Source: an uncultured Xylophilus sp. (GTDB taxonomy: Bacteria > Pseudomonadota > Gammaproteobacteria > Burkholderiales > Burkholderiaceae_C). From it: 34,557 nt of DNA. The notes below the pieces were generated by a model. That model saw only the letters and a program-made list of their open reading frames with translations, was not told the origin of the DNA and did no database searches. Made by a program: the position numbers and the translations under genes. The stretch spans positions 65,248 through 99,804 of the forward strand of contig CAJYQL010000023.1 in the NCBI GenBank assembly GCA_913776965.1, in the 5' to 3' direction. Shown piece by piece: positions 12,907 through 31,666 of this stretch. Within the stretch, counting starts at the first letter, position 1. Each line of letters opens with the position of its first letter.

Positions 12907-15189
12907 TCAGCGCCGACTCTTGCGCGGCTTGCCGCCCGATTTGGCCGCGGCTTTCTTGGCGGACGTCTTGCCGGCGCGGCCACCCGACAGGCTGCGGTCG
13001 GTGTCACCGCCGCCCTCCCCGCTCCGCGCCTTGCCGGTGCGCCCGGATTTGTTACGGTTGGCCCGCGGCGCCTCGCCGTCTCCACCGCCACCTTCGCGGC
13101 CGACGCCCTTGTCGCGCATCGCTCGGACGATAGCGTCCTCGCCGTCGCGCACCAACCGAAAGTCGATCTTGCGGCCGTCCAGGTCCACCCGGCTGACCTG
13201 CACCCGCAGACGCGTGCCGACCGCATACCGGATGCCCGTGCGTTCGCCGCGCAGCTCCTGCCGGGCCTCGTCGAAGCGGAAGTACTCCCCGCCGAGTTCG
13301 GTGATGTGGACCAGCCCTTCGACATACATCGCGTCGAGCGTGACGAAGATGCCGAAGGTCGTCGCCGCGGTGACGACACCGCTGTACTCCTCGCCGAGGT
13401 GCTCACGCATGTACTTGCACTTGAGCCAGGCCTCGACATCGCGGCTCGCCTCGTCGGCACGGCGCTCGTTGGCGCTGCAGTGCAGTCCGGCCGCCTCCCA
13501 GGCCTGCATTTCCTTCGCGCCGGCGACGATCTTCACCGGCTTCTGCGTCGGCGGCTTGACCCGCTGGGCGAGCCGCTTGGCCAGCTTCGCATGCGCCTCG
13601 CCGGGCGTCGGCAACGTCGGCAACTGGTAGGTGGTCTTGCCGAGGATCGCCTTGATCACCCGGTGCACCAGCAGGTCGGGGTAGCGGCGGATCGGGCTGG
13701 TGAAGTGGGTGTAGGCCTCGTAGGCGAGGCCGAAGTGTCCGCTGTTGAACGGCGTGTAGATCGCCTGCTGCATCGACCGCAGCAGCATCGTGTGGATCTG
13801 CTGCGCATCCGGCCGGTCTTTGGTGGCCTGGGCCACCGCCTGGAATTCGCCGGGCACGGGATCGTCGCTGATGGTCATGCCGACGCCCATCGCCCGCAGG
13901 TAGTTGCGCAGGATTTCCTTCTTCTCGGGCGTGGGGCCTTCGTGGACCCGATACAGCCCGGGCTGGCCGCCCTGCTGGATGAAGTCGGCGCTGCAGACGT
14001 TGGCCGCGAGCATCGCCTCCTCGATGATCCGGTGCGCTTCGTTGCGGGTGCGCGGTACGATCTTCTCGACGCGGCCGTTTTCGTCGCAGACGATCTGCGT
14101 TTCGGTCGTCTCGAAGTCGACCGCCCCGCGTGCACCGCGGGCCGCAAGCAGGGCACGGTACACGTCCGACAGGTTCAGCAGATTCTCGATCCGGTCCTTG
14201 CGCTTGGCCGCCTCGGGGCCTCGGGTGTTGGACAGGATGGCCGCCACTTCGGTGTAGGTGAAGCGGGCATGGCTGAACATCACCGCCGGGTAGAACTGGT
14301 AGGCGTGCACCTCGCCCTTGGCGGTGACGAGCATGTCGCACACCATGCAGAGCCGCTCGACATCGGGGTTCAGCGAACAGAGTCCGTTCGACAGCTTCTC
14401 CGGCAGCATGGGGATCACGCGGCGCGGGAAGTAGACGCTGGTGGCGCGCTCGTAGGCGTCGATGTCGATCGCGTTGCCGGTGTGCACGTAGTGGCTCACG
14501 TCGGCGATCGCCACCAGCAGGCGCCAGCCCTTGGTGCGGCCGACCTTCGCCGGTTCGCAATAGACCGCGTCGTCGAAGTCGCGTGCGTCTTCGCCGTCGA
14601 TCGTCACCAGCGGCACATCGCGCAGATCCACCCGATCGCGGTGGTCCTGCGGGCGGACCTTGTCGGGCAGGGTTTTCGTGAGCGCGAGACATGCCTCAGA
14701 AAACTCGTGCGGCACGCCGTATTTGCGCACCGCGATCTCGATCTCCATGCCGGGGTCATCGACCTCGCCGAGCACCTCGATTACGCGGCCCACCGGCTGG
14801 CCGTACAGCGCCGGCGGTTCGGTCAGTTCGACCACCACCACCTGCCCCGGATTGGCCGTGCCGATCGCACCTTTCGGAATGAGCACGTCCTGGCCGTACC
14901 GCTTGTCTTCCGGCGCGACCAGCCAGATGCCGCTCTCCTGCAGCAGGCGGCCGATGATCGGCTGGGCAGGGCGCTCGACGATCTCGACCACCCGGCCTTC
15001 CGCCCGGCCGCGCCGGTCGTGCCGCACGATCCGCGCTTTTACGCGGTCCTTGTGCAGCACGGCACGCATCTCGTTGGGCGGCAGGAATACGTCCGTCTGG
15101 CCGTCGTCGCGCAGCAGGAATCCGTGGCCATCGCGGTGGCCTTGTACGGTTCCGACAAATTCTTCGAGAAGATTGTTGTGTTGGTTCAT
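12907..15189 (-). CDS. rnr: Ribonuclease R
   Basis: RNase R is a processive 3'-5' exoribonuclease that degrades structured RNA and takes part in trans-translation and rRNA quality control. The 760-residue product has N-terminal cold-shock/OB domains (GHGFLLRDDGQTDVFLPP near 21-38), the catalytic RNB domain with the metal-binding cluster TIDGEDARDFDD at residues 196-207, ISDDPVPGEF, and SPIRRYPDLLVHR. An S1 domain follows near 610-690, and a Lys/Arg/Ser/Gly-rich tail extends to the end. It starts directly in the first OB domain and so lacks the N-terminal helix-turn-helix region of the 813-residue E. coli protein. The ATG at 15189 has no Shine-Dalgarno sequence, but TATACT lies only six bases upstream on the same strand, so a leaderless message is possible. 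Confidence 0.97.
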   Translation of the reverse strand: MNQHNNLLEEFVGTVQGHRDGHGFLLRDDGQTDVFLPPNEMRAVLHKDRVKARIVRHDRRGRAEGRVVEIVERPAQPIIGRLLQESGIWLVAPEDKRYGQDVLIPKGAIGTANPGQVVVVELTEPPALYGQPVGRVIEVLGEVDDPGMEIEIAVRKYGVPHEFSEACLALTKTLPDKVRPQDHRDRVDLRDVPLVTIDGEDARDFDDAVYCEPAKVGRTKGWRLLVAIADVSHYVHTGNAIDIDAYERATSVYFPRRVIPMLPEKLSNGLCSLNPDVERLCMVCDMLVTAKGEVHAYQFYPAVMFSHARFTYTEVAAILSNTRGPEAAKRKDRIENLLNLSDVYRALLAARGARGAVDFETTETQIVCDENGRVEKIVPRTRNEAHRIIEEAMLAANVCSADFIQQGGQPGLYRVHEGPTPEKKEILRNYLRAMGVGMTISDDPVPGEFQAVAQATKDRPDAQQIHTMLLRSMQQAIYTPFNSGHFGLAYEAYTHFTSPIRRYPDLLVHRVIKAILGKTTYQLPTLPTPGEAHAKLAKRLAQRVKPPTQKPVKIVAGAKEMQAWEAAGLHCSANERRADEASRDVEAWLKCKYMREHLGEEYSGVVTAATTFGIFVTLDAMYVEGLVHITELGGEYFRFDEARQELRGERTGIRYAVGTRLRVQVSRVDLDGRKIDFRLVRDGEDAIVRAMRDKGVGREGGGGDGEAPRANRNKSGRTGKARSGEGGGDTDRSLSGGRAGKTSAKKAAAKSGGKPRKSRR

Positions 15190-15205
15190 TTTTTCAGTAT
15201 AGAAT
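15176..15205 (+). promoter_or_regulatory. Candidate promoter of tRNA-Leu overlapping the rnr start
   Basis: TTGTGT (15176-15181), a 16-base spacer and TATAGA (15198-15203) precede the tRNA by about 20 bases. The overlapping bases AGTATA (15196-15201) read TATACT on the minus strand, just upstream of the rnr ATG. Both readings are plausible but the -35 is weak. Confidence 0.4.
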
Positions 15206-15222
15206 CGTGGCTTCCCTGAAAT

Positions 15223-15307
<85 letters not shown>

Positions 15308-15343
15308 AGTTTGATGACAGCCGACAAGGCTGGAATTGTGAGA

Positions 15344-15372
15344 AGCCGCTGAGTGATCAGCGGCTTTTTTTT
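15344..15372 (+). terminator. Intrinsic terminator of tRNA-Leu
   Basis: AGCCGCTGA (15344-15352), loop GTGA and TCAGCGGCT (15357-15365) form a perfect nine-base stem followed by a run of T to 15372. It lies 36 bases after the tRNA. It faces the 3' end of rimO, which is on the opposite strand. Confidence 0.93.
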
Positions 15373-15491
15373 GTCTCTGCGCAGACGGGCTTCGGCCACT
15401 GCGCCCCACAGCGCGGGCCTGCAAGCCCGTACGGTGGCCACAACGCACGCCAGCAGCGAATCGACCTGTGCGATCACCGCCGCGTGCTCCG

Positions 15492-16901
15492 TCATACGGG
15501 CAGCGCCACCAGATCGTGACCGTCGGTCGAGACGATGCGTGCGCGGGTGAACTCGCCCACCTTCAGCGTCTTGCTGATCTTCTCGGGCGGCAGCAGTTTC
15601 ACGACACCGTCGATCTCCGGTGCATCCGCATAGCTGCGGCCGGTGCCGCCGCGACGGCCCAGACCCGGCGCCGCATCCACCAGCACCTGCATCGTGGCAC
15701 CCACGCGGCGCCGCAGCTTGGCGGCCGACACCTCTTCGGCCACCGCCATGAAGCGCGCGCGCCGCGCTTCGCGCTCCTCCAGCGGCAGCAAGCCCGGAAT
15801 GTCGTTGGCGGCCGCACCGTCCACGGCGCTGTATGCGAAACAACCTGCACGGTCGATTTCCGCCTCGCGCACGAAGTCGAGCAGATGCTGGAACTCTTCT
15901 TCCGTCTCGCCGGGAAACCCGGCGATGAACGTGCTGCGGATCACGATCTCCGGACAGGCTTCGCGCCAGCGCTGGATGCGCTCCAGGTTGCGCTCGCCGC
16001 TCGCCGGCCGTTTCATGCGACGCAGCACGTCGGGATGGCTGTGCTGGAAGGGCACGTCCAGGTATGGCAACGCGAGACCCTGCGCCATCAGCGGCACGAC
16101 ATCGTCCACGCTCGGATACGGGTAGACGTAATGCAGCCGCACCCAGGCACCGTAGGGCTCGGCCATTTCGCCGAGCGCCTGCACCAGGTCCAGCATGCGG
16201 GTCCGGACCGGACGGCCGTCGTAGAAACCGGTGCGGTACTTCACGTCCACGCCGTAGGCCGAGGTGTCCTGGCTGATGATCAGCAGTTCCTTCACACCGC
16301 CTTCGAACAACGCGCGCGCTTCCTTCAGCACATCGCCGATCGGCCGCGACACCAGGTCGCCGCGCATCGACGGGATGATGCAGAAGGTGCAGCGATGGTT
16401 GCAGCCTTCGCTGATCTTGAGATACGCATAGTGCTTGGGTGTCAGCTTGATGCCCGCTTCGCCGAAACCGCCGGGCACCAGATCGATGAACGGATCGTGC
16501 GGCTTGGGCAGATTGAGATGGACCGCATCCATCACCTCCTGCGTGGCGTGCGGCCCGGTGACGGCCAGCACGCTGGGGTGCATCTGCCGCACGAGATTGC
16601 CGCCGCCTTCGCCGCTGCGGGCACCGAGGCAGCCGGTCACGATCACCTTGCCGTTTTCCGCCAGCGCCTCGCCGATGGTGTCGAGGCTTTCGCGCACTGC
16701 ATCGTCGATGAAGCCGCAGGTGTTGACGATGACGAGATCGGCACCTTCGAACGTTTTGGAGGTCTGGTAGCCCTCGGCGCTCAGCTGCGTGAGGATCAGT
16801 TCGGAATCGGTCAGCGCCTTCGGACAGCCGAGACTGACGAATCCGACGCGCGGTGCGGCCGCTGCGGGTGTGTGCGTGGGGGAGAGTACTTCTTCGCTCA
16901 T
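15492..16901 (-). CDS. rimO: Ribosomal protein uS12 Asp88 methylthiotransferase
   Basis: RimO is a radical-SAM enzyme with two [4Fe-4S] clusters that adds a methylthio group to the beta-carbon of an aspartate in ribosomal protein S12. The 469-residue product has the N-terminal methylthiotransferase domain with cluster ligands Cys26 ([13 protein letters not shown]), Cys62 ([10 protein letters not shown]) and Cys91 (VTGCLGAR). The radical-SAM motif CNHRCTFC is at residues 167-174, in [20 protein letters not shown], which distinguishes RimO from MiaB. A C-terminal TRAM domain follows. The ATG at 16901 gives the family N-terminus; the longer open frame upstream only covers phaR. The gene lies 23 bases downstream of phaR and is probably co-transcribed with it. 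Confidence 0.97.
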
Positions 16902-23386: not shown

Positions 23387-23860
23387 ATGCCTCTGCCTCT
23401 CCGCTCGCCCCACGGCTCGGCCGACGGCATCCGCCTGGGCAGCGACATCGTGCGGATCGCGGACGTCGCCGATGCCTTGCAGACCTTCGGCGACCGTTAC
23501 CTGCGCCGCGTCTTCACGCCCCACGAAATCGCCACCTGCCGGACGGCGGCAGCGACCATGCCGTCGCGGCTGGCCGCCCGCTTCGCTGCGAAGGAAGCCT
23601 GCGTCAAGGTGCTGCGGCCGGTGCACCGCTGGTTCGACTGGCGGTCGATCGAGGTCGTGAAGACCAGCGGCGGCTGGTGCGAACTGCGGCTGCACGGCGC
23701 GGCTCTGCGTGCCGCCCGCCGCCAAGGCGTCGTGTCGCTCGCCGTTTCCCTCAGCCACGACGGCGCCTATGCGCAGTCGGTGGTGGCCGCTACCCTCAGA
23801 CCGACCGTCCGCCCTCGTCCTTTGCGCCCCCGCGCCCATTCCCCCGGGAGAATCCGTTGA
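23387..23860 (+). CDS. acpS: AcpS-type holo-[carrier protein] synthase, cluster-dedicated
   Basis: AcpS enzymes move 4'-phosphopantetheine from CoA to a conserved Ser of a carrier protein. The 157-residue product has all family motifs: GSDIVRIADV near residue 18 (Asp is the Mg ligand), YLRRVFTPHEI, the CoA-binding RFAAKEACVK, and VSLSHDGAYA. A Pro/Arg-rich tail of about 25 residues extends past the usual 125-residue length. The gene's TGA overlaps the TTG start of the carrier-protein gene (TTGA), so the two are translationally coupled. This links it to that carrier rather than to fatty-acid synthesis. E. coli acpS sits beside pdxJ, which is not here, so a second copy may exist elsewhere (inference). 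The ATG at 23387 is preferred over upstream in-frame starts because it begins close to the first motif. Confidence 0.9.
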   Translation: MPLPLRSPHGSADGIRLGSDIVRIADVADALQTFGDRYLRRVFTPHEIATCRTAAATMPSRLAARFAAKEACVKVLRPVHRWFDWRSIEVVKTSGGWCELRLHGAALRAARRQGVVSLAVSLSHDGAYAQSVVAATLRPTVRPRPLRPRAHSPGRIR

Positions 23861-24102
23861 ATCCGACCGAAGACATCCGCAAGGTCCTGCAGCAGCACGG
23901 CCGCCTCTCCGCAGACGCCCTTACGCTGGCCGAAGATGCCGACCTGTACCAGGCGGGACTGACCTCGCATGCCAGCGTCAATGTGATGCTGGCGCTCGAG
24001 AACGTGTTCGACGTCGAGTTCCCGGACCGGATGCTCAAGCGCGGCGTATTCGCAAGCATCGCCAGCATCCGCGAGGCGGTTGAGGAATTGACCGCATCAT
24101 GA
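23857..24102 (+). CDS. Free-standing acyl/aminoacyl carrier protein (TTG start)
   Basis: This is an 81-residue carrier protein whose phosphopantetheine arm would carry the cluster's intermediate. The site reads DLYQAGLTSHASVN, with attachment Ser37 in the place of the canonical D-S-L Ser. Helix I (about 4-14), the loop, helix II (38-50, MLALENVFDVEF follows) and helix III/IV (ASIASIREAVEEL) fit the four-helix fold. The sequence resembles the carriers paired with amino acid:[carrier protein] ligases more than fatty-acid ACP, which has DSLD. The TTG at 23857 was chosen because it overlaps the acpS stop and gives the exact family length; upstream extension would run through acpS. It overlaps the next gene's ATG (ATGA). 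A gene finder that requires ATG or GTG would miss or lengthen it. Confidence 0.88.
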   Translation: MNPTEDIRKVLQQHGRLSADALTLAEDADLYQAGLTSHASVNVMLALENVFDVEFPDRMLKRGVFASIASIREAVEELTAS

Positions 24103-25277
24103 GCGCCGCCGCACCGGCCGACGACCGCACAGCCCTGGCTGTCGCCCGGCGGATCGCCGACACGATCGCCGCCCGCCATGCGGACGAGGTCGACCGCGCA
24201 TCGCGTTTCCCGGCGGAGACGATCGCGGCGCTGCGCGAGGAAGGGCTGCTGTCGGCCTACGTGCCGGCGGCGCTCGGCGGCCGGAGCACCTCCTTCGGCG
24301 AACTGGTCGCCATCTGCACCGCGCTCGGACAGCGCTGTTCAGCCTCGGCGATGGTGTTCGCGATGCACCAGATCCAGGTCGGCTGCATCGTGCACCACGG
24401 GCTGACGACCGACTATTTCCGCGACTACTGCCGCCAGCTCGTCGAGCAACAGTGGCTGATCGCCTCGGTAACGTCGGAGCTCGGCGTGGGCGGCGATACC
24501 CGTTCCAGCATCTGTGCGGTCGAGGTGGACGGAGCACGTTTCGCACTCGACAAGATCGCGACCACGATTTCCTACGGCGCGCATGCAGACGACCTGCTCG
24601 TCACCTGCCGGCGCGACCCGCAGGCTGCGCGCAGTGACCAGGTGATGGTGTTGCTGCGCCAGGGCAGCTTCTCTTTGGAGCAGACCTCGCAGTGGGACAC
24701 CCTCGGCATGCGCGGCACCTGCAGTCCCGGCTTCAAGCTCGCGTCCACCGGATCGGTCGACCAGATTCTGCCGGTGGACTATGCCGAGGTGTCGGGCGCG
24801 ACGATGGTGCCGTTCTCGCACATCCTCTGGGCTGGCGTATGGCTCGGCATCGCGACCGATGCCACCGCCCGGGCGGCCGCGAGCGTGCGGGCCGCCGCCC
24901 GGCAGAACCCGGGCACTGTGCCGCCGACGGCGCTGCGATTGGCCGAACTGGCCGGCGCGCTGCAGACGATGCGGGCGCAGGTCCAGGAAGCCGTCGCGTC
25001 GTTCGAGGCATTGCTCGCGGCACCCGAAGGAGCGGACACCTTCTCCACGATCGCGTTCGCCCTGCGCATGAACCACCTCAAGATCGCCTGCTCCACCGCG
25101 GTGGTCGACATCGTGCAGCAGGCGCTGCTGATCTGCGGCATCCAGGGCTATCGCAACGGCTCGCCAGCGAGCGTCGGCCGGCACCTGCGCGACGCGCTGT
25201 CGGCGCCGCTGATGGTCGGCAACGACCGCATGCACGCCCAGAACGCATCGCTACTGCTGGTGCACAAGGACATCTGA
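24099..25277 (+). CDS. Acyl-CoA dehydrogenase-fold flavoprotein
   Basis: The 392-residue product has the acyl-CoA dehydrogenase fold: an N-terminal helical domain (to about 115), the FAD-binding middle domain with LIASVTSELGVGGDTRSS near 127-144, and a C-terminal helical domain from about 225. Family members oxidise acyl thioesters; relatives in antibiotic pathways act on carrier-protein-bound substrates, and others are flavin monooxygenases. At the C-terminal site where short-chain dehydrogenases have the catalytic Glu in a YEGT motif, this protein reads LMVGNDRMHAQNASLL, so that Glu is absent. Either another residue is the base or the enzyme is a monooxygenase-type member. The RHLRDALSAPL segment before it recalls the type 2 subgroup. 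Its ATG overlaps the carrier-protein stop, and the ligase gene starts four bases after it, so the bound aminoacyl group is the likely substrate (inference). Confidence 0.87.
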   Translation: MSAAAPADDRTALAVARRIADTIAARHADEVDRASRFPAETIAALREEGLLSAYVPAALGGRSTSFGELVAICTALGQRCSASAMVFAMHQIQVGCIVHHGLTTDYFRDYCRQLVEQQWLIASVTSELGVGGDTRSSICAVEVDGARFALDKIATTISYGAHADDLLVTCRRDPQAARSDQVMVLLRQGSFSLEQTSQWDTLGMRGTCSPGFKLASTGSVDQILPVDYAEVSGATMVPFSHILWAGVWLGIATDATARAAASVRAAARQNPGTVPPTALRLAELAGALQTMRAQVQEAVASFEALLAAPEGADTFSTIAFALRMNHLKIACSTAVVDIVQQALLICGIQGYRNGSPASVGRHLRDALSAPLMVGNDRMHAQNASLLLVHKDI

Positions 25278-25281
25278 CCTC

Positions 25282-26187
25282 ATGGAATTCGACTCCCGAT
25301 CCCTCTACGACGGACTGGTGGCGCACGGCCTGATCGTGCCGTCGGGCGAGCCCGGCGTGTTCGGCCGCAACGCGGCGTTCGAGGACGTGCTCGAGCGCTT
25401 CTCCGCCCTGGTGAGCCAGGTGGCAGCGGCCGATGGCGCCGAGAAGTACACCTTCCCGCCGACGCTCGCCCGGCCGGTGTTCGAACGCAGCGGCTTCATG
25501 AAGTCGTTCCCGCAGCTGGCGATGGGCGTCGTCAGCTTCTGCGGCTGCGCCTCGGATCACCCGAAGCTCGTCGAACGCATCGCCAACGGCGAAAGCTACG
25601 ACGACCTGATGGCACGGACCGGCGTGGTGCTGATCCCCGCCGCCTGCTACCCGCTCTACCCGAGCCTGGGCGGCACCCTGCCCGCCGGCGGCCGGCTGGT
25701 CGACATGACCCACTGGGTGTTCCGCCACGAGCCGTCGGACGAACCGACCCGGATGCAGGCGTTCCGCGTGCGGGAATTCGTGCGTGCCGGCGCGCCCGAC
25801 GAGGTGGTGGCCTGGCGCGACATGTGGCTGGAGCGCGGTCTGGAACTGCTGCGCAGCCTCGGCCTGCCGGCCGACCCCGAGGTGGCGACGGACCCGTTCT
25901 TCGGCCGCGCCGGCCGGATGCTGGCGGTCAACCAGCGCGAGCAGAAGCTGAAGTTCGAGGTGGTGGTGCCGGTGATCTCGGCCGAGAAGCCGACCGCCGT
26001 CTGCTCCTTCAACTACCACCAGGACTACTTCTCCAAAACCTTCGAGATCCTGCAGCCCAACGGCGAACTGGCCCACACCGCCTGCCTCGGCTTCGGACTG
26101 GAGCGTGTCTGCATGGCGCTGTTCAAGCACCACGGCTTCGATCCGCTGCAGTGGCCGGCGGCGGTCCGCGCGCGGCTCTGGCCATGA
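25282..26187 (+). CDS. Amino acid:[carrier protein] ligase (atypical seryl-tRNA synthetase homologue)
   Basis: These enzymes are seryl-tRNA-synthetase paralogues that lack the tRNA-binding arm. They activate an amino acid with ATP and load it on the phosphopantetheine of a carrier protein; characterised Bradyrhizobium members use Gly or Ala. The 301-residue product is the right length and has only the catalytic class II domain. Motif 2 reads FRVREF (161-166) and motif 3 GFGLER (270-275). The three residues expected to bind the active-site zinc are present: Cys122 (PAACYPLYPSLGG), Glu165 and Cys268 (AHTACLGFG). The ACYPLYP segment is characteristic of this family. Its substrate cannot be read from sequence alone. 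It starts four bases after the flavoprotein and overlaps the DUF1839 gene by four bases. The carrier protein it should charge is two genes upstream. Confidence 0.9.
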   Translation: MEFDSRSLYDGLVAHGLIVPSGEPGVFGRNAAFEDVLERFSALVSQVAAADGAEKYTFPPTLARPVFERSGFMKSFPQLAMGVVSFCGCASDHPKLVERIANGESYDDLMARTGVVLIPAACYPLYPSLGGTLPAGGRLVDMTHWVFRHEPSDEPTRMQAFRVREFVRAGAPDEVVAWRDMWLERGLELLRSLGLPADPEVATDPFFGRAGRMLAVNQREQKLKFEVVVPVISAEKPTAVCSFNYHQDYFSKTFEILQPNGELAHTACLGFGLERVCMALFKHHGFDPLQWPAAVRARLWP

Positions 26188-27194
26188 CGGCGCCCGCCGC
26201 GCCGGGTGCTGCGGTGCTGCCGCTGCGCGCCGCCGACTACCAGTCGCATGCCGTGCATTGCCCGGGCAGCGCCTGGGTCGAGAAGAACTGCTACATCGAT
26301 GTGTGGATCGAGGCGGTACATGCGCTCGGCCTGGAACCGCTCGCGATGCTCCCGTTCACCGTGCGGCTGGACTTCGAGGGCGACCAGTGGACCTTCTTCA
26401 AGCCGCCGCACCGCGACCTGGAGCGTCTGTACGGCATCGTGGTGCACGAGCTCAACCCATGGCGCGGCGACATCGTCCTGCATGCCGAGGCGCAGGCGCG
26501 CCAGGGCCGGCTGGTGTTCACCGAGGCCGATGCCTTCTGGCTGCCCGATACCGCCGGCACCGACTACCGCCAGCAGCACACCAAGACGACCATCGTGGTC
26601 AATGCGCTGGACCGGACCGCCGAGACGCTGGGCTACTTCCACAACGCCGGCTACCACGAACTGCAGGGCGAAGACTTCCGCCGGCTGTTCCGCACCGACG
26701 TACCGCCCGATCCCGCCTTCATGCCCTTCTATGCCGAGTTCGCGCGGATCGACCGGCTGAAGCGCCTGCCGGCGCCGGAACTGGCGGCCCTGTCGACCGA
26801 GCTGCTGGCGGAACACCTGGCTTATGTGCCCGCCACGAACCCGGTGGAGCGTTTCGCGGCGCAGTTTCCCGCCGACGTCGCTTGGCTGCAGGCCGAGGGC
26901 CTGCCGCTCTACCACGGCTATGCGTTCGCGACGCTGCGCCAGCTGGGTGCGAACTTCGAACTGTGCGCGCGCGGCATCGGGTGGATGGCCGCGCAGCACG
27001 CTGGTGGCGACAAGGCGGCCCTCGCCGAGGCCGAAGCCGCCTTCGACGAGATCTCCGGCGGCGCCAAGGCCATGGTGCTGAAGACCGCGCGGGCGGTGCA
27101 CGGCGGCCGCGCGACCGATTTCGCGCCCCTGCTGCAGGGCATGGCCGACGCCTGGACGCGCGGCATGCAGGCGTTGCGCACGGCGGTCGTCTGA
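26184..27194 (+). CDS. DUF1839 protein, candidate papain-like aminoacyltransferase
   Basis: The 336-residue product matches my recollection of the DUF1839 family, which has no established activity. Its N-terminal 170 residues resemble the BtrH-type papain-like fold: a Cys early in a helix (Cys36 in KNCYIDVWIEAVHALGLEP), then ADAFWLPDTAGTDYRQQH, and His132 before TTIVVNALD, with a following LGYFHNAGYHEL strand. In butirosin synthesis BtrH moves an acyl group from a carrier protein to an aminoglycoside amine, so a similar transfer of an aminoacyl group is plausible (inference). The C-terminal 160 residues are helical and unassigned. There is no signal peptide. The ATG overlaps the ligase stop (ATGA), and the GH2 gene starts ten bases later. 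The Cys/His assignment is by eye and needs structure prediction. Confidence 0.8.
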   Translation: MTAPAAPGAAVLPLRAADYQSHAVHCPGSAWVEKNCYIDVWIEAVHALGLEPLAMLPFTVRLDFEGDQWTFFKPPHRDLERLYGIVVHELNPWRGDIVLHAEAQARQGRLVFTEADAFWLPDTAGTDYRQQHTKTTIVVNALDRTAETLGYFHNAGYHELQGEDFRRLFRTDVPPDPAFMPFYAEFARIDRLKRLPAPELAALSTELLAEHLAYVPATNPVERFAAQFPADVAWLQAEGLPLYHGYAFATLRQLGANFELCARGIGWMAAQHAGGDKAALAEAEAAFDEISGGAKAMVLKTARAVHGGRATDFAPLLQGMADAWTRGMQALRTAVV

Positions 27195-27204
27195 CCGGTC
27201 CGCG

Positions 27205-29778
27205 ATGCCGCTGCTGCCCCTCGCGCTCACCCCGGCCGTGCCGTCGCCGCTGCGGCTGCTGGACAGCGGCTGGGAGATGGCGGCCGTGCCGCCCCATGCC
27301 GCCGCCGAGCCGGACGCCCTGGCGGCGCTGGAGCCGGCATGGCAGCCCGCCACCGTGCCCGGCACCGCCAGCGCCCAGGGACGCCCCGGTGGGGCCTCAG
27401 ACCCTGCCGCCTGGCCGGCGCTCGACGATCGGGACGTATGGTTCCGCTGCCGGTTCGAGGCCGCGGCGGCACAGCCTGGGCAGGGTCGCAGCCTTGCCCT
27501 CGGCGGTATCGCCACGCTGGCGCAGGTGTGGGTGAACGGCACCCCGCTGCTGGCCGCGTCGGACAACATGTTCCACGCCCACCTGCTGGATGCGGACGCC
27601 CTACTGGTCGAAGGGTCCAACACGCTACAGATCCGTTGCGCCTCGGTCGCCGCAGCACTGCAGGCCCGCCGGCCGCGGCCGCGCTGGCGCACCCGGCTGG
27701 TCGACCAGCAGCAGCTGCGCTGGATCCGCACCAGCCTCGTCGGCCGCATGCCCGGCTGGACCCCGACCGCGCCGGCCATCGGCCCGTGGCGGCCGGTGGC
27801 GCTCGCCACCCACGACGGCGCCCAGTGGCACACGCTGGACGTGCAGGCCGCGCTCGACGATGCTGGTACCGGCACGGTGCGCCTGCAGGGTTGCCTGGAA
27901 CTGAACGACGCACGGCATCCGACGGCCCATCTGACCGTCGGCGATACCACCGTGTTGCTCGACATCCAACCTTTGCCCGACGGCCAATGGCACATTGCCG
28001 GCCAATGCACCGTACCATCCCCCGCGCTGTGGTGGCCGCATACCCACGGCGAACCTGCGCTGTATGCGGTCACGCTGACGGTCGAAGACCCCACCCGCCA
28101 CTGGCGCTTCGACCTCGGCCGCACCGGCTTCCGCCGCATCGCCCTCGCAATGGCGGACGACGGCTTCGCGCTGTCGGTCAACGGCGTGCCGGTGTTCTGC
28201 CGAGGCGCCTGCTGGACGCCCGCCGACCTGCTCGCCCTGCCCGGCCAGGCGCCCGACCTGCGGGCTCGCCTACTGCAGGCCCGCGACGCCGGCATGAACA
28301 TGCTGCGGGTCGGCGGCACGATGGCCTACGAAACCGACGCATTCCATGCGCTTTGCGACGAACTCGGCATCCTGGTCTGGCAGGACTGGATGTTCGCCAA
28401 CATGGACTACCCGGCCGACGATGCGCACTTCGCGGCGTCGGTCGAGACCGAGGCACGCCAGTTCCTGCAGCGCACCGCGCTGTCGCCCAGCCTGGCGCTG
28501 CTGTGCGGCAACAGCGAGGTCGAGCAGCAGGCGGCGATGGTCGGCGCCGATCCGGCGATCTGGCGCAGCACGTTGTTCGCCGATCGCCTGCCCGCCATCG
28601 GCCGGGAGATGCGACCTGACGTGCCGTATTGGCCGTCGAGCCCCGCCGGCGGCGTGCTGCCGTTCCAAGTCGATGCGGGCGTGGCGCACTACTTCGGCGT
28701 CGGCGCCTATCTGCAGCCGGTCACCGACGCACGGCGCAGCGGCCTGCGCTTCGCGTCCGAATGCCTGGCCTTCGCCCACATTCCCGAGCCGGACAACCTG
28801 GAACGTCTGACGCCCGCGGGCGCGGCACCGCCCGGTCATTCGGCCTGGAAGGCCCGGGTGCCGCGCGACGGTGGCGCCGCCTGGGACTTCGACGACGTAC
28901 GCGACCATTACCTGCAGGCGCTGTTCGGCGTGCAGCCCGACCTGCTGCGCCGCACCGAGCCCGAGCGCTACCTGGCGCTGGGCCGGGTCGCCACCGGCGA
29001 GACGATGCTCGCCGCCTTCCGCGAATGGCGCCGCAGCGGCTCGGCCTGCGCCGGTGCGCTGGTCTGGTTCCTGCAGGACCTGCAGGCCGGCGCCGGCTGG
29101 GGCGTGGTCGATGCCGACGGCCATCCGAAAGCCGCCTGGTACTACCTGCAGCGGGCGATGGCGCCGGTCGCGTTGTTCCTGACCGACGAAGGCCTGAACG
29201 GCCTGGCGCTGCATGCGGTGAACGACCGGCCGCAGTCGCGCGCCGCCGTCCTGAGCCTCTGCCTGCTGCGCCGCGACGGCTTGCGCGTGGCCGAGGGCCG
29301 ACGGGAGGTCGTGCTGCCGGCGCATGGCGCACGGGCCCTGCGCGGCGACGACCTGCTCGGCCGCTTCACCGACAGCACCTGCCGCTACCTGTTCGGCCCG
29401 CCGGGCCACGACCTGGCCTGGGCCGAATTGCGCGACGCCACGACCGGCGAGCTGCTGGCCTGCGACGCGTACTTCCCGGCCGGCCACGGCCTGCCGGTGC
29501 AGCCGTCGGTCGGGCTGGCCGTCCATGCCGGCACGCCGCAGGCGGACGGTACGGTCGTGCTCGACATCCGCACTACCGCCTTCGCGCAGGCGGTGCGCAT
29601 CGAGGCGGCCGGCTTCCGGGCCGAGCGCAACTATTTCCACCTGCCGCCCGGCGGCACCGCCGCGGTGCGGCTGCGGCCGCTGCACGCGGTACGGCGGCCG
29701 CAGGTCCTGGTGGAGGTGCTGAACGCCGCCGAGGCGGTACGCCTGCCGCTGCCGGCCGCGCCCGCCTCTGCCCCATGA
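27205..29778 (+). CDS. GH2 family glycoside hydrolase, beta-mannosidase-like
   Basis: The 857-residue product has the GH2 modular layout: a jelly-roll sugar-binding domain (about 15-190, with LAQVWVNGTPLL), an immunoglobulin-like domain (about 200-310), a TIM barrel from about 315 and C-terminal beta domains. In the barrel, the acid/base Glu438 lies in CGNSEVEQQ and the nucleophile Glu519 in RFASECLAFAHIPEPDN, equivalent to the beta-mannosidase sites; ALVWFLQDLQAGAGWGVVD matches the family's conserved segment after them. The catalytic pair is intact, so it should be active on a beta-mannoside or related glycoside. No signal peptide is present, so the enzyme is probably cytoplasmic and acts on an imported or internally made substrate. 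It starts ten bases after the DUF1839 gene and ends four bases before the hydrolase gene. Confidence 0.88.
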   Translation: MPLLPLALTPAVPSPLRLLDSGWEMAAVPPHAAAEPDALAALEPAWQPATVPGTASAQGRPGGASDPAAWPALDDRDVWFRCRFEAAAAQPGQGRSLALGGIATLAQVWVNGTPLLAASDNMFHAHLLDADALLVEGSNTLQIRCASVAAALQARRPRPRWRTRLVDQQQLRWIRTSLVGRMPGWTPTAPAIGPWRPVALATHDGAQWHTLDVQAALDDAGTGTVRLQGCLELNDARHPTAHLTVGDTTVLLDIQPLPDGQWHIAGQCTVPSPALWWPHTHGEPALYAVTLTVEDPTRHWRFDLGRTGFRRIALAMADDGFALSVNGVPVFCRGACWTPADLLALPGQAPDLRARLLQARDAGMNMLRVGGTMAYETDAFHALCDELGILVWQDWMFANMDYPADDAHFAASVETEARQFLQRTALSPSLALLCGNSEVEQQAAMVGADPAIWRSTLFADRLPAIGREMRPDVPYWPSSPAGGVLPFQVDAGVAHYFGVGAYLQPVTDARRSGLRFASECLAFAHIPEPDNLERLTPAGAAPPGHSAWKARVPRDGGAAWDFDDVRDHYLQALFGVQPDLLRRTEPERYLALGRVATGETMLAAFREWRRSGSACAGALVWFLQDLQAGAGWGVVDADGHPKAAWYYLQRAMAPVALFLTDEGLNGLALHAVNDRPQSRAAVLSLCLLRRDGLRVAEGRREVVLPAHGARALRGDDLLGRFTDSTCRYLFGPPGHDLAWAELRDATTGELLACDAYFPAGHGLPVQPSVGLAVHAGTPQADGTVVLDIRTTAFAQAVRIEAAGFRAERNYFHLPPGGTAAVRLRPLHAVRRPQVLVEVLNAAEAVRLPLPAAPASAP

Positions 29779-29782
29779 CCCG

Positions 29783-31666
29783 ATGACGCCTGCCGCCGCA
29801 TCACCGCCATTCGCCTGGATGCCGTCCGCCGAGCCGATGCCGGACGGCGCCCGCCCGGTGCTGTTCGACCGGCCCGGGCGTCGGCTGTTCGGCTGGTACC
29901 ACCCACCGGCCATCGGCGCCGACGGCACCTGGCGCGACTGCGCAGTGGTCCTCGTGTCGCCGATCGGCTACGACGCGGTCTACACCCACCGGCACTACCG
30001 CAACCTCGCCCAGCAGTTGGCAGCCGCCGGCTTCGCGGTGCTGCGCTACGACCACCACGGCACCGGCGATTCGTCCGGCGGTGAAACCGCGCCGGAGCGG
30101 ATCGCCGCCTGGATGCGCGGCGTGCAGCGGGCGGCCGAATTCGCCCGGTCCAGCAGCGGTGCGGCACGCGTCGGCCTGTTCGGCGTGCGCCTGGGGGGTA
30201 CGCTCGCGCTGGCGGCCGCGGCGGGCGCATCCGACGGGCTGATCGACGGCGTCGCCGCCTGGGCGCCGTATCCATCGGGCCAGAACTTCCTGCGCGAGAT
30301 GCGGGCGCTGGCGATGCGCCAGGACGCCGATCCGGTCGCCGCACCGCCGGCCCACGACCCCGGTGCCGACGCCGGCGAGGAAGCGGCCGGCCACCTGCTC
30401 ACCGCCTCCACCATCGCTGCCCTGGGCACGCTCGACCTGCTGGCGCTGGACCGGGCGCCGGCCGCGCAGGTGTTGCTGCTCGACCGCGACGACCTGCCCG
30501 GCCGGCCGCGGCTCGCGCGCCACCTGGAGAGCCTGGGCTGCGACCTGCGCCTGTCCACGGCGCCGGGCTACGCGGCCATGATGCGCGAGCCGTACGACGC
30601 CACACTGCCGGCCGAAGCCTTCGCTGCGGTGCGCCGCTGGCTGGAGGACGGCTGCCCGCCCGGCCCCGCACCGGCCGTCGTGCCGCTGCCGCCGGTCTTT
30701 CCCGCCCACCTGCACGGCCCGGCCGACGGCGTGGAGGAATTGCCGATGCGCTTCGGCCGCGACGGCAACCTGTTCGGCCTGCTGGCGCGGCCGGTGGTGC
30801 CGGCGCCGGGGCGTGCGCAGGTCGGGATCGTGTTCGCGACCGTCGGCGCCAACCTGCACACCGGCCCGCACCGCATGCATGTCCAGCAGTCGCGGCTGCT
30901 GGCTGAACGCGGCTTCGTCGCGCTGCGGATCGACATCGGCGGCATCGGCGAAAGCCCGGCCGCACCGGGTCGCGCCCATCACCAGTTGCATGCGGACCAT
31001 TCGGTCGGCGACGTGCTGGACGCGGTCGCGCTGCTGCGCGAGCGCTGCGGCGTGCAGAGGGTGGTCGTGATCGGCCTCTGCTCGGGCGGCTACCTGGCTT
31101 TCCATGCGGCGCTGGACGCGGCGAGCGGCATCGACAGCATCGTGCTGATCAACCAGCAGACCTTCCAGTGGCGCGAAGGCGATTCCTACGAAGTGCGCCG
31201 GCGCGCCAACATCCGCTCGGTCGGCTTCTACCGCAGCCGCCTGTTCGACGGCGCGACCTGGCGCCGGCTGCTGCGCGGCAAGGTGGACGTGGCGCGCATC
31301 GCCGTCGGCATGACGCACCTGGTGCGGCGCCGCGCCGCGCTGAAGCTGGCCGCCTGGCAGCGGCGCGGCGACGGCACCCATGCGGCCGACGGCGTGCTGG
31401 GCGACCGTGCGCCCGCGCTCAACGTGCAGCGCGCGATGACCGGGCTGCTGCAGCGCGGCCTGCAGGTCTACTTCATCTTCAGCGCCGACGACGGCGGCCT
31501 GGACGAGATCGAGACCCACCTCGGCCCGGGCGGCCGGCGAATGCGCAAGCACACCAACTTCCGCCTGGAGATCGTGCCCGGTGCCGACCACACCTTCACG
31601 CCGCGCTGGGCGCAGCGGCACCTGGCGGGCCTGGTGGAGCAGCACGTCACCCGCCTCTACGGCTGA
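29783..31666 (+). CDS. Tandem alpha/beta hydrolase (degenerate domain 1, Cys-type domain 2)
   Basis: The 627-residue product is two alpha/beta hydrolase domains fused. Domain 1 (about 25-290) has LRYDHHGTGDSSGG and GLFGVRLGG (134-139), where Arg136 occupies the nucleophile position. In the usual His region it reads PGYAAMMREPYDATLP, with Tyr where His would be expected, so it is probably catalytically dead. Domain 2 (about 315-627) has LRIDIGGIGES, VVIGLCSGGY with Cys433 as nucleophile, the acidic FIFSADDGGLDEI and the His in PGADHTFTP. That is a complete Cys-Asp-His triad, as in dienelactone hydrolases. Both halves resemble the exosortase-A-associated hydrolases. A thioesterase or acyl-transfer role on the carrier-bound product is an inference from context. 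It starts four bases after the GH2 gene and ends 21 bases before earP. Confidence 0.85.
   Translation: MTPAAASPPFAWMPSAEPMPDGARPVLFDRPGRRLFGWYHPPAIGADGTWRDCAVVLVSPIGYDAVYTHRHYRNLAQQLAAAGFAVLRYDHHGTGDSSGGETAPERIAAWMRGVQRAAEFARSSSGAARVGLFGVRLGGTLALAAAAGASDGLIDGVAAWAPYPSGQNFLREMRALAMRQDADPVAAPPAHDPGADAGEEAAGHLLTASTIAALGTLDLLALDRAPAAQVLLLDRDDLPGRPRLARHLESLGCDLRLSTAPGYAAMMREPYDATLPAEAFAAVRRWLEDGCPPGPAPAVVPLPPVFPAHLHGPADGVEELPMRFGRDGNLFGLLARPVVPAPGRAQVGIVFATVGANLHTGPHRMHVQQSRLLAERGFVALRIDIGGIGESPAAPGRAHHQLHADHSVGDVLDAVALLRERCGVQRVVVIGLCSGGYLAFHAALDAASGIDSIVLINQQTFQWREGDSYEVRRRANIRSVGFYRSRLFDGATWRRLLRGKVDVARIAVGMTHLVRRRAALKLAAWQRRGDGTHAADGVLGDRAPALNVQRAMTGLLQRGLQVYFIFSADDGGLDEIETHLGPGGRRMRKHTNFRLEIVPGADHTFTPRWAQRHLAGLVEQHVTRLYG

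Follow-up and report, generated by a model that had tools for sequence, protein, structure and literature searches.

The present study analyzes a compact gene cluster which, with a probability of about 0.68, encodes an NRPS-independent, carrier-dependent condensation pathway, with DUF1839 as the condensing enzyme and an amine-bearing, possibly sugar-linked compound as the acceptor. The cluster occupies positions 23387-31666 of the window, by which we mean the whole 34,557-nucleotide stretch of DNA that was analyzed. As computed, it consists of seven tightly packed open reading frames, all on the + strand and all coding by score, with three overlaps of 4 bases each and remaining gaps of 4, 10, and 4 bases; the positions and coding scores thus confirm the packing in overlaps or gaps of at most 10 bases described in the earlier note. 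The genes are as follows.

23387..23860, + strand: AcpS-type phosphopantetheinyl transferase (PPTase), 157 aa; PF01648 (ACPS family), 56.4 bits.
23857..24102, + strand: carrier protein, 81 aa, TTG start; PP-binding; NCBIfam PRK07081, 105.8 bits (cut-off 72).
24099..25277, + strand: acyl-CoA-dehydrogenase-fold (ACAD-fold) flavoprotein of the acyl-CoA dehydrogenase family, without the canonical catalytic Glu; His241 invariant.
25282..26187, + strand: amino acid:[carrier protein] ligase, SerRS-like, without a tRNA-binding domain; NCBIfam PRK07080, 396.6 bits (cut-off 357).
26184..27194, + strand: DUF1839, predicted papain-like condensing enzyme with Cys36, Thr136, and His153; DUF1839, 359.2 bits (cut-off 22.5).
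27205..29778, + strand: GH2 glycosidase, beta-mannosidase-like, with acid/base Glu438 and nucleophile Glu519.
29783..31666, + strand: fused double alpha/beta hydrolase of two alpha/beta-hydrolase units, GxRxG in the N half and GxCxG in the C half.

Conservation was computed in two sets of loci, drawn partly from the same genomes (L127 and L209, L125 and L212, and L148 and L219 are pairs on equally long contigs). The 48-locus set is a non-random sample from the 80 best matches to the window's DUF1839, 32 of which were too short or cut and were left out, and presence was scored anywhere within the locus; a 17-locus set of DUF1839-type loci was compared separately and, together with the window, supplied the profiles other than that of the PPTase. 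Carrier, flavoprotein, ligase, DUF1839, and GH2 occurred in that order in all 17 loci of the latter set, and in the 48-locus set the partners of DUF1839 were found in 44 to 47 loci each (GH2 47, carrier 46, flavoprotein 46, ligase 44), patterns that support a coherent core. The comparison of gene neighborhoods proposed in the earlier note was therefore positive for these five genes, and rare co-occurrence was not seen for that core. The claim of a seven-gene set held in some loci but not as a rule: the double hydrolase was present in 38/48 and 10/17 loci, and a PPTase relative in 26/48 and 0/17, by a profile made from the window protein alone that may miss relatives. In a phylum survey of 398 genomes, including the window's own, 28 had an over-cut-off ligase and 16 had DUF1839, and because all 16 were among the 28 the pairing is not chance (2e-21 assuming independent genomes, an assumption that does not hold). 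Immediately 3′ of the ligase, and on its strand, lies a DUF1839 gene in the window; the 15 other genomes all show this arrangement. Among the matches listed, 567 of 590 pattern-matched stretches were confirmed as DUF1839 relatives. The gene set is conserved and present in many bacterial groups, and the cluster sits at unrelated genomic places, plasmids among them. GH2 is not always needed: on Rhizobium binae plasmid p4 it is missing from the 20.9 kb that hold the carrier, flavoprotein, ligase, and DUF1839 genes, and it is broken in the R. acidisoli cluster. In bean-nodulating rhizobia the cluster was found behind nitrogenase genes.

The window cluster lies 21 bases before earP-efp, and an efp relative was also nearby in four other loci (L060, L061, L064, L066), together with genes resembling an aminomutase and epmA; these latter two were identified only in L060 and L064. 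Among six fetched relatives, five (L193-L196, L198) have uvrC and earP-efp 0.2 to 2.2 kb apart and no core gene in the interval, and in the sixth (L197) approximately 5 kb without core matches separate them. On these grounds a functional tie to elongation factor P is rejected for the window, where the place before earP-efp is best regarded as an insertion site.

The earlier note had the product trimmed by the glycosidase and the hydrolase, which was a guess. Alignment of GH2 with the PDB beta-mannosidase 5n6u (E 4.7e-61) placed the catalytic residues, and the pair is kept, Glu519 in 79/79 and Glu438 in 74/79 sequences (4 Asp, 1 Gln). The hydrolase, however, lacks a nucleophile in its N half, where residue 136 is never Ser, and has Cys433 and His603 in 56/56 in its C half; these residues would suit an acyltransferase or a thioesterase no less than a trimming enzyme. 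The two halves resemble TIGR03101 and TIGR03100, under the cut-offs, with 111.9 vs 168.45 and 94.3 vs 202.75 bits for TIGR03100 and TIGR03101, and in one locus (L155) the two halves have separate relatives, which adjoin genes for a carrier, a flavoprotein, and an adenylation protein. A crude hydropathy scan found a signal-like N terminus in 0/79 GH2 sequences, and the double hydrolase likewise looks cytoplasmic.

An alternative explanation, in our estimate unlikely, could be decoration of the cell envelope or of an exopolysaccharide, with the acyl group moved from the carrier to a lipid-linked sugar or to the repeat unit of a polysaccharide, which GH2 and the hydrolase would then edit. This would be consistent with the likeness of the hydrolase halves to exosortase A-associated hydrolases, with a guess from gene context, made at one point in a published survey, that DUF1839 acts on cell-wall glycans (PMC10318531), and with some of the neighboring genes: among 111 scanned of the nearest 150 (766 lay within 8 kb) there were 4 matches to Bac_transf, 4 and 3 to two glycosyltransferase families, and 3 to Acyl_transf_3. 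Such sugar and acyl transferase families are, however, few among the 111 and come without a background rate, no glycan genes lie beside the cluster in the window, and neither the apparently cytoplasmic GH2 and hydrolase nor the scatter of the cluster over unrelated places, plasmids included, would be expected of this explanation.

Condensation by DUF1839 is suggested by its predicted structure, a papain-like N-terminal and a helical C-terminal domain that match CcbD and CtaG over most of the length, which supports the transfer to an acceptor that had been proposed for this cluster. As in CcbD/CtaG-type systems, a carrier and an amino-acid-activating enzyme share the cluster with DUF1839, in the window and in both locus sets. 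CtaG, from a different type of cluster, that of closthioamide, joins an acyl group and an amine; the CtaG variants deposited in the PDB implicate C11, H128, and D144. In DUF1839, Cys36 opens the first long helix (36-47) and is present in 84/86 sequences, with His132 and His153 in 86/86 and Thr136 in 82/86. A 2023 survey describes, in one of its parts, a C-(T/S)-H triad with the His moved (PMC10318531); this probably permuted triad differs from the Cys-His-Glu of CcbD. A sequence-profile search of the PDB with DUF1839 found none of the fold relatives CcbD, CtaG, and AziU3. The fold likeness does not fix the reaction, but the best reading of the model is a carrier-dependent condensing enzyme, with amide formation predicted. 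One of the fold relatives, AziU3, performs ring closure and not condensation, and DUF1839 could similarly close a ring intramolecularly on the carrier, or act as a hydrolase, so that the carrier-bound amino acid itself would be converted and released. This we consider improbable, as CcbD and CtaG couple an acyl group with an amine and GH2 would be left without a role.

For the condensation pathway the carrier would need an amino acid, and the family assignments support loading by the ligase, as had been proposed. The 301-aa ligase scores above the curated cut-off of its family and retains a SerRS-like core; the matches to SerRS models begin only at model positions 303 and 301 of 518. It matches the Bll0957 structures at E 3e-72, and C122, E165, and C268, the equivalents of what we take to be the zinc ligands in Bll0957, are kept in 86/86 sequences. 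Further support comes from replacement elsewhere: five genomes had no ligase, and four of these had an amino-acid adenylation protein, in two cases (L127, L163) outside the fetched stretch, while in the fifth, a Gemmatimonadota MAG (L152), no close adenylation protein was found; four of the five genomes are MAGs, from which genes may be missing. The ligase is thus the replaceable step of the pathway, and where an NRPS-type adenylation protein takes its place, two unrelated enzymes appear to serve the same chemical step. The chimera in 4h2w has a helix sequence that, judged by eye, is like those of DUF1839-type ligases, and one studied donor was probably of the DUF1839-associated type.

Twelve genomes had an over-cut-off ligase but no DUF1839; ten of them (all except G544 and G353) and L056 from an order search make up a second group of ligases, eleven loci in all, which contains Bll0957. 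In the whole collection of loci, L057 was recovered by six-frame search, and L083-L087, with ligase matches under the cut-off, were left out of both groups. Flavoprotein and ligase were found in 11/11 of these loci and a carrier-like gene in 8/11, with DUF1839 and GH2 in 0/11. That arrangement could suggest an ordinary stand-alone module that loads for an NRPS or fatty-acid system located elsewhere; GH2 and the hydrolase would then be hitch-hikers, but hitch-hiking clashes with the presence of GH2 in 47/48 and 17/17 loci and we regard this as very improbable.

The phosphopantetheine residue of the carrier, Ser37, was present in 73/73 sequences; for all cluster proteins, such residue counts leave out odd-length or low-score sequences. 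The PPTase is probably dedicated to the cluster, and the same genome carries another AcpS-type gene on contig C12. Oxidation of the amino acid while carrier-bound is less well supported. Precedents make it plausible, but when the flavoprotein was aligned to butyryl-CoA and isovaleryl-CoA dehydrogenases to place the catalytic positions, both base glutamates of known acyl-CoA dehydrogenases were missing. There was no catalytic Glu in the window protein or its aligned relatives (n=93) at either position, by what we take to be the roles and numbering of the two residues (MCAD-376, IVD-254): the equivalent of the first, 373, was I in 49 and V in 43 with one gap, and that of the second, 240, was S in 70, A in 20, T in 2, and C in 1. 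The proposed oxidation could for that reason be wrong.

In the condensation pathway that we favor, the PPTase or a housekeeping AcpS would place phosphopantetheine on the 81-aa carrier, and the SerRS-like ligase would use ATP to activate a small amino acid, which it would then load as a thioester. The bound aminoacyl group may then be oxidized by the flavoprotein, after which Cys36 of DUF1839 would accept it and hand it to an acceptor amine, or less likely a hydroxyl, in a ping-pong manner like CcbD. A cytoplasmic GH2 might act on a glycoside, either the acceptor or the product, and a second acyl transfer or the release could fall to the Cys-type double hydrolase. Carried further, and tentatively, the cluster may be a cross-phylum route to undescribed soluble aminoacyl-amides, in which an amino acid oxidized on the carrier is joined to a glycoside-bound amine, with a tRNA-synthetase relative in place of an adenylation domain, a permuted-triad papain-fold enzyme in place of a condensation domain, a half-dead Cys double hydrolase for finishing, and possible symbiotic use in rhizobia. 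The ligase family is not known to have a physiological role, and the cluster would supply its first likely job. In this cluster the partners of the ligase are steady, and one has the predicted fold of enzymes that move carrier-bound amino acids to amines; this makes the old question of its role testable. As the module is widespread, its product may be a common, overlooked bacterial metabolite.

Among known systems, the Bradyrhizobium ligases (Bll0957; PDB 3mey, 4h2s-4h2y) belong to the same family as the window ligase, with equivalent zinc ligands, and an ACAD-fold gene adjoins the ligase in both settings, whereas DUF1839 and GH2 occur only in the window type. The neighboring bll0958 is given as an acyl-CoA dehydrogenase in a passage of PMC10888616. 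The prolyl-ACP dehydrogenase 4irn and ColB1 7xp7, by their entry titles, use the ACAD fold on carrier-tethered amino acids, the fold seen here, but in place of the two known catalytic Glu residues the window type has Val or Ile at 373 and mostly Ser or Ala at 240. Exosortase A-associated hydrolases 1 and 2 (TIGR03100, TIGR03101) are like the two hydrolase halves, which are fused in the window cluster. Butirosin BtrH (BtrH_N, PF14399) is described, in part of the survey cited above, as a member of the papain-like superfamily that transfers an acyl group from a carrier to an aminoglycoside (PMC10318531); DUF1839 is predicted to share the superfamily, and hhalign linked the two profiles weakly, at 44% probability, with the Cys motifs aligned. 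Lincosamide synthetase (LmbC, LmbN-CP, LmbD/CcbD) likewise combines stand-alone amino-acid activation and a carrier with a papain-like condensing enzyme, whose overall fold is the one predicted for DUF1839. It differs in that most loci here use a SerRS-like ligase and not an A domain, in that the window lacks sugar-building genes, and in that the flavoprotein, GH2, and Cys hydrolase are additions of the present cluster.

The cluster appears in our comparisons as a real unit with a constant core of five genes, running from the carrier protein through the flavoprotein, the ligase and DUF1839 to GH2; the unit described in the earlier note is indeed unusually complete, and in part of the loci only does it extend to the PPTase and the hydrolase. 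In the window itself, an ORF check found all seven frames present, coding and tightly packed, and the genes are real and packed as first described.

Genes of the cluster (23387-31666, plus strand), in order, as identified with Pfam and NCBIfam models:
PPTase, AcpS-type
Carrier protein, PRK07081
Flavoprotein with acyl-CoA-dehydrogenase fold
Amino acid--[acyl-carrier-protein] ligase, PRK07080, score above the cut-off
Remaining three genes: DUF1839, GH2 enzyme, double alpha/beta hydrolase

Among 398 genomes of the phylum, a number that includes the window's own, 28 had an over-cut-off ligase and 16 had DUF1839, every one of the 16 being among the 28. The co-occurrence check proposed earlier for ligase homologues bore out the core: in longer stretches around 17 DUF1839-type loci (15 from the 398-genome search and two from a gene-order search), the five genes lay on one strand in this order in all 17; ten of these loci also had the hydrolase, and none had the PPTase. 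A profile scan of named genomes confirmed at least 567 of 590 stretches as DUF1839, the best 80 of which came, going by their record titles, from Beta- and Gammaproteobacteria, Myxococcota, Acidobacteriota, Chloroflexi, Planctomycetes, Gemmatimonadota, Actinobacteria and Firmicutes. Among the 48 of these 80 loci that were well covered (over 5 kb of sequence ahead of DUF1839 and over 8 kb counted from its start), GH2 was found anywhere in the locus in 47, the flavoprotein and the carrier in 46 each, the ligase in 44, the hydrolase in 38 and the PPTase in 26; for all 80, cut contigs included, the counts were flavoprotein 74, GH2 73, ligase 71, carrier 68, hydrolase 52 and PPTase 38. Gene order varied: the genes formed either a single operon or two divergent ones, the first with flavoprotein-ligase-DUF1839 and the second with PPTase-carrier-GH2-hydrolase. 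Each pairing among the five large proteins gave correlated inter-locus distances (r 0.54 to 0.86, with none of 200 permutations as high), a result that host kinship alone can produce.

Another AcpS-type gene is present outside the cluster in the same genome, so the clustered PPTase looks dedicated. A consensus scan of the window detected five terminator-like sites against 3.3 expected, the two longest 3' of efp and the other three within genes, and no sigma-70-like promoter; as weak evidence, this does not contradict a single transcript from the PPTase to efp.

The second ligase group is built differently. Its 11 fetched loci all had flavoprotein and ligase, and none had DUF1839 or GH2; Bll0957, the studied Bradyrhizobium ligase, was placed in this group from its sequence, by eye. 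A table in PMC10888616 gives its neighbour tag, bll0958, as an acyl-CoA dehydrogenase and reports both proteins up 3-fold in a phaR mutant.

Five loci (L127, L138, L152, L163, L165) had no ligase between flavoprotein and DUF1839, and their genomes gave no PRK07080 match (0/5), while each of four comparison loci (L091, L093, L094, L119) gave one. This could partly be incompleteness because four of the five genomes are MAGs, the isolate being L165 (Reinekea). Four of the five carried a stand-alone protein close to that of L138 (100% for its own, then 81, 65 and 57%), and the fifth, L152, gave nothing closer than a 33% match, which lay in a large frame. Of seven ligase-bearing genomes searched alongside, four had matches, none above 37%, and three had no match.

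Adenylation genes in the four genomes:
L138:10216-11745, near the cluster, score above the cut-off of the amino-acid adenylation model
L165:18771-20315, near the cluster, likewise above that cut-off
L227 and L228 (in the genomes of L127 and L163 the gene lies outside the fetched stretch)

In four genomes the tRNA-synthetase-like ligase seems to have given way to a stand-alone amino-acid adenylation protein. These findings support the view that the pathway begins with amino-acid activation, independently of what the ligase is named.

Some loci carry additional genes. Beside the cluster, L155:375-5314 holds a second set with an adenylation protein (above the cut-off of the amino-acid adenylation model), a carrier, a flavoprotein and two hydrolases as separate genes; this flavoprotein fell below every listed cut-off (best E 6.9e-48), and the prolyl-carrier dehydrogenase model matched it at E 8.9e-36, behind several other models. 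Hydrolase relatives form part of larger proteins (about 1100 aa) close to the cluster at L060:912-4223 and in L061 from 14691, and an extra hydrolase of about 223 aa lies in or adjoins the cluster at 12 loci, including L111:7031-7750, where it is carboxylesterase-like. Two genomes have an operon DUF1839 without the catalytic Cys and a second DUF1839 with it.

Paired DUF1839 genes:
L070:9919-10896 and 14753-15817
L054:10910-11893
L082:91-1188

The operon copy is likely a pseudo-enzyme and the second its active paralogue.

Two genes that we take, from their sequence, to be uvrC and pgsA border the window's cluster at one end, and earP, efp and a ribD-like gene border it at the other. Six relatives (L193-L198) were compared at this site. 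In five of them, four from the same genus and one from the same family, uvrC and earP-efp are 0.2 to 2.2 kb apart with no core gene between; in the sixth, about 5 kb of other DNA lies between them. Of 200 genomes of the family, 17 gave a DUF1839 match, a number that includes the window's own genome and one remnant. The remnant, in another genus of the family (L206:9265-13120, 5.8 kb from earP-efp), retains a ligase frame of full length and a hydrolase, with GH2 and DUF1839 present as fragments, and its gene order and side of earP-efp match the window's; it is apparently a decaying copy of the cluster at the same place. In one family outside the window's class (L060, L061, L064, L066), the cluster has as neighbours an elongation factor P relative together with an aminomutase-like and an epmA-like gene (the latter two identified in L060 and L064), as it has earP-efp in the window.

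The cluster is also plasmid-borne, in 59 records: Rhizobium 18, Azospirillum 11, Mycetohabitans 9, Caballeronia 7, Cupriavidus 4, Burkholderia 4, Shinella 3, Methylobacterium 2 and Phyllobacterium 1. Ten plasmid regions were fetched, one of them unannotated. In R. gallicum and R. acidisoli, nifDKENX-fdxB is followed by one small gene and then the carrier gene.

Clusters behind nif genes on two bean-nodule Rhizobium plasmids:
L235:7604-13463
L172:6604-12445

GH2 is broken across several frames in R. acidisoli, and the 20.9 kb read on R. binae plasmid p4 contain the first four core genes without GH2.

On the evidence added here, the most likely central reaction is one in which DUF1839 passes the carrier-bound amino acid to an amine. 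The proposed DUF1839 pathway would work in a mode like that of lincosamide synthetase.
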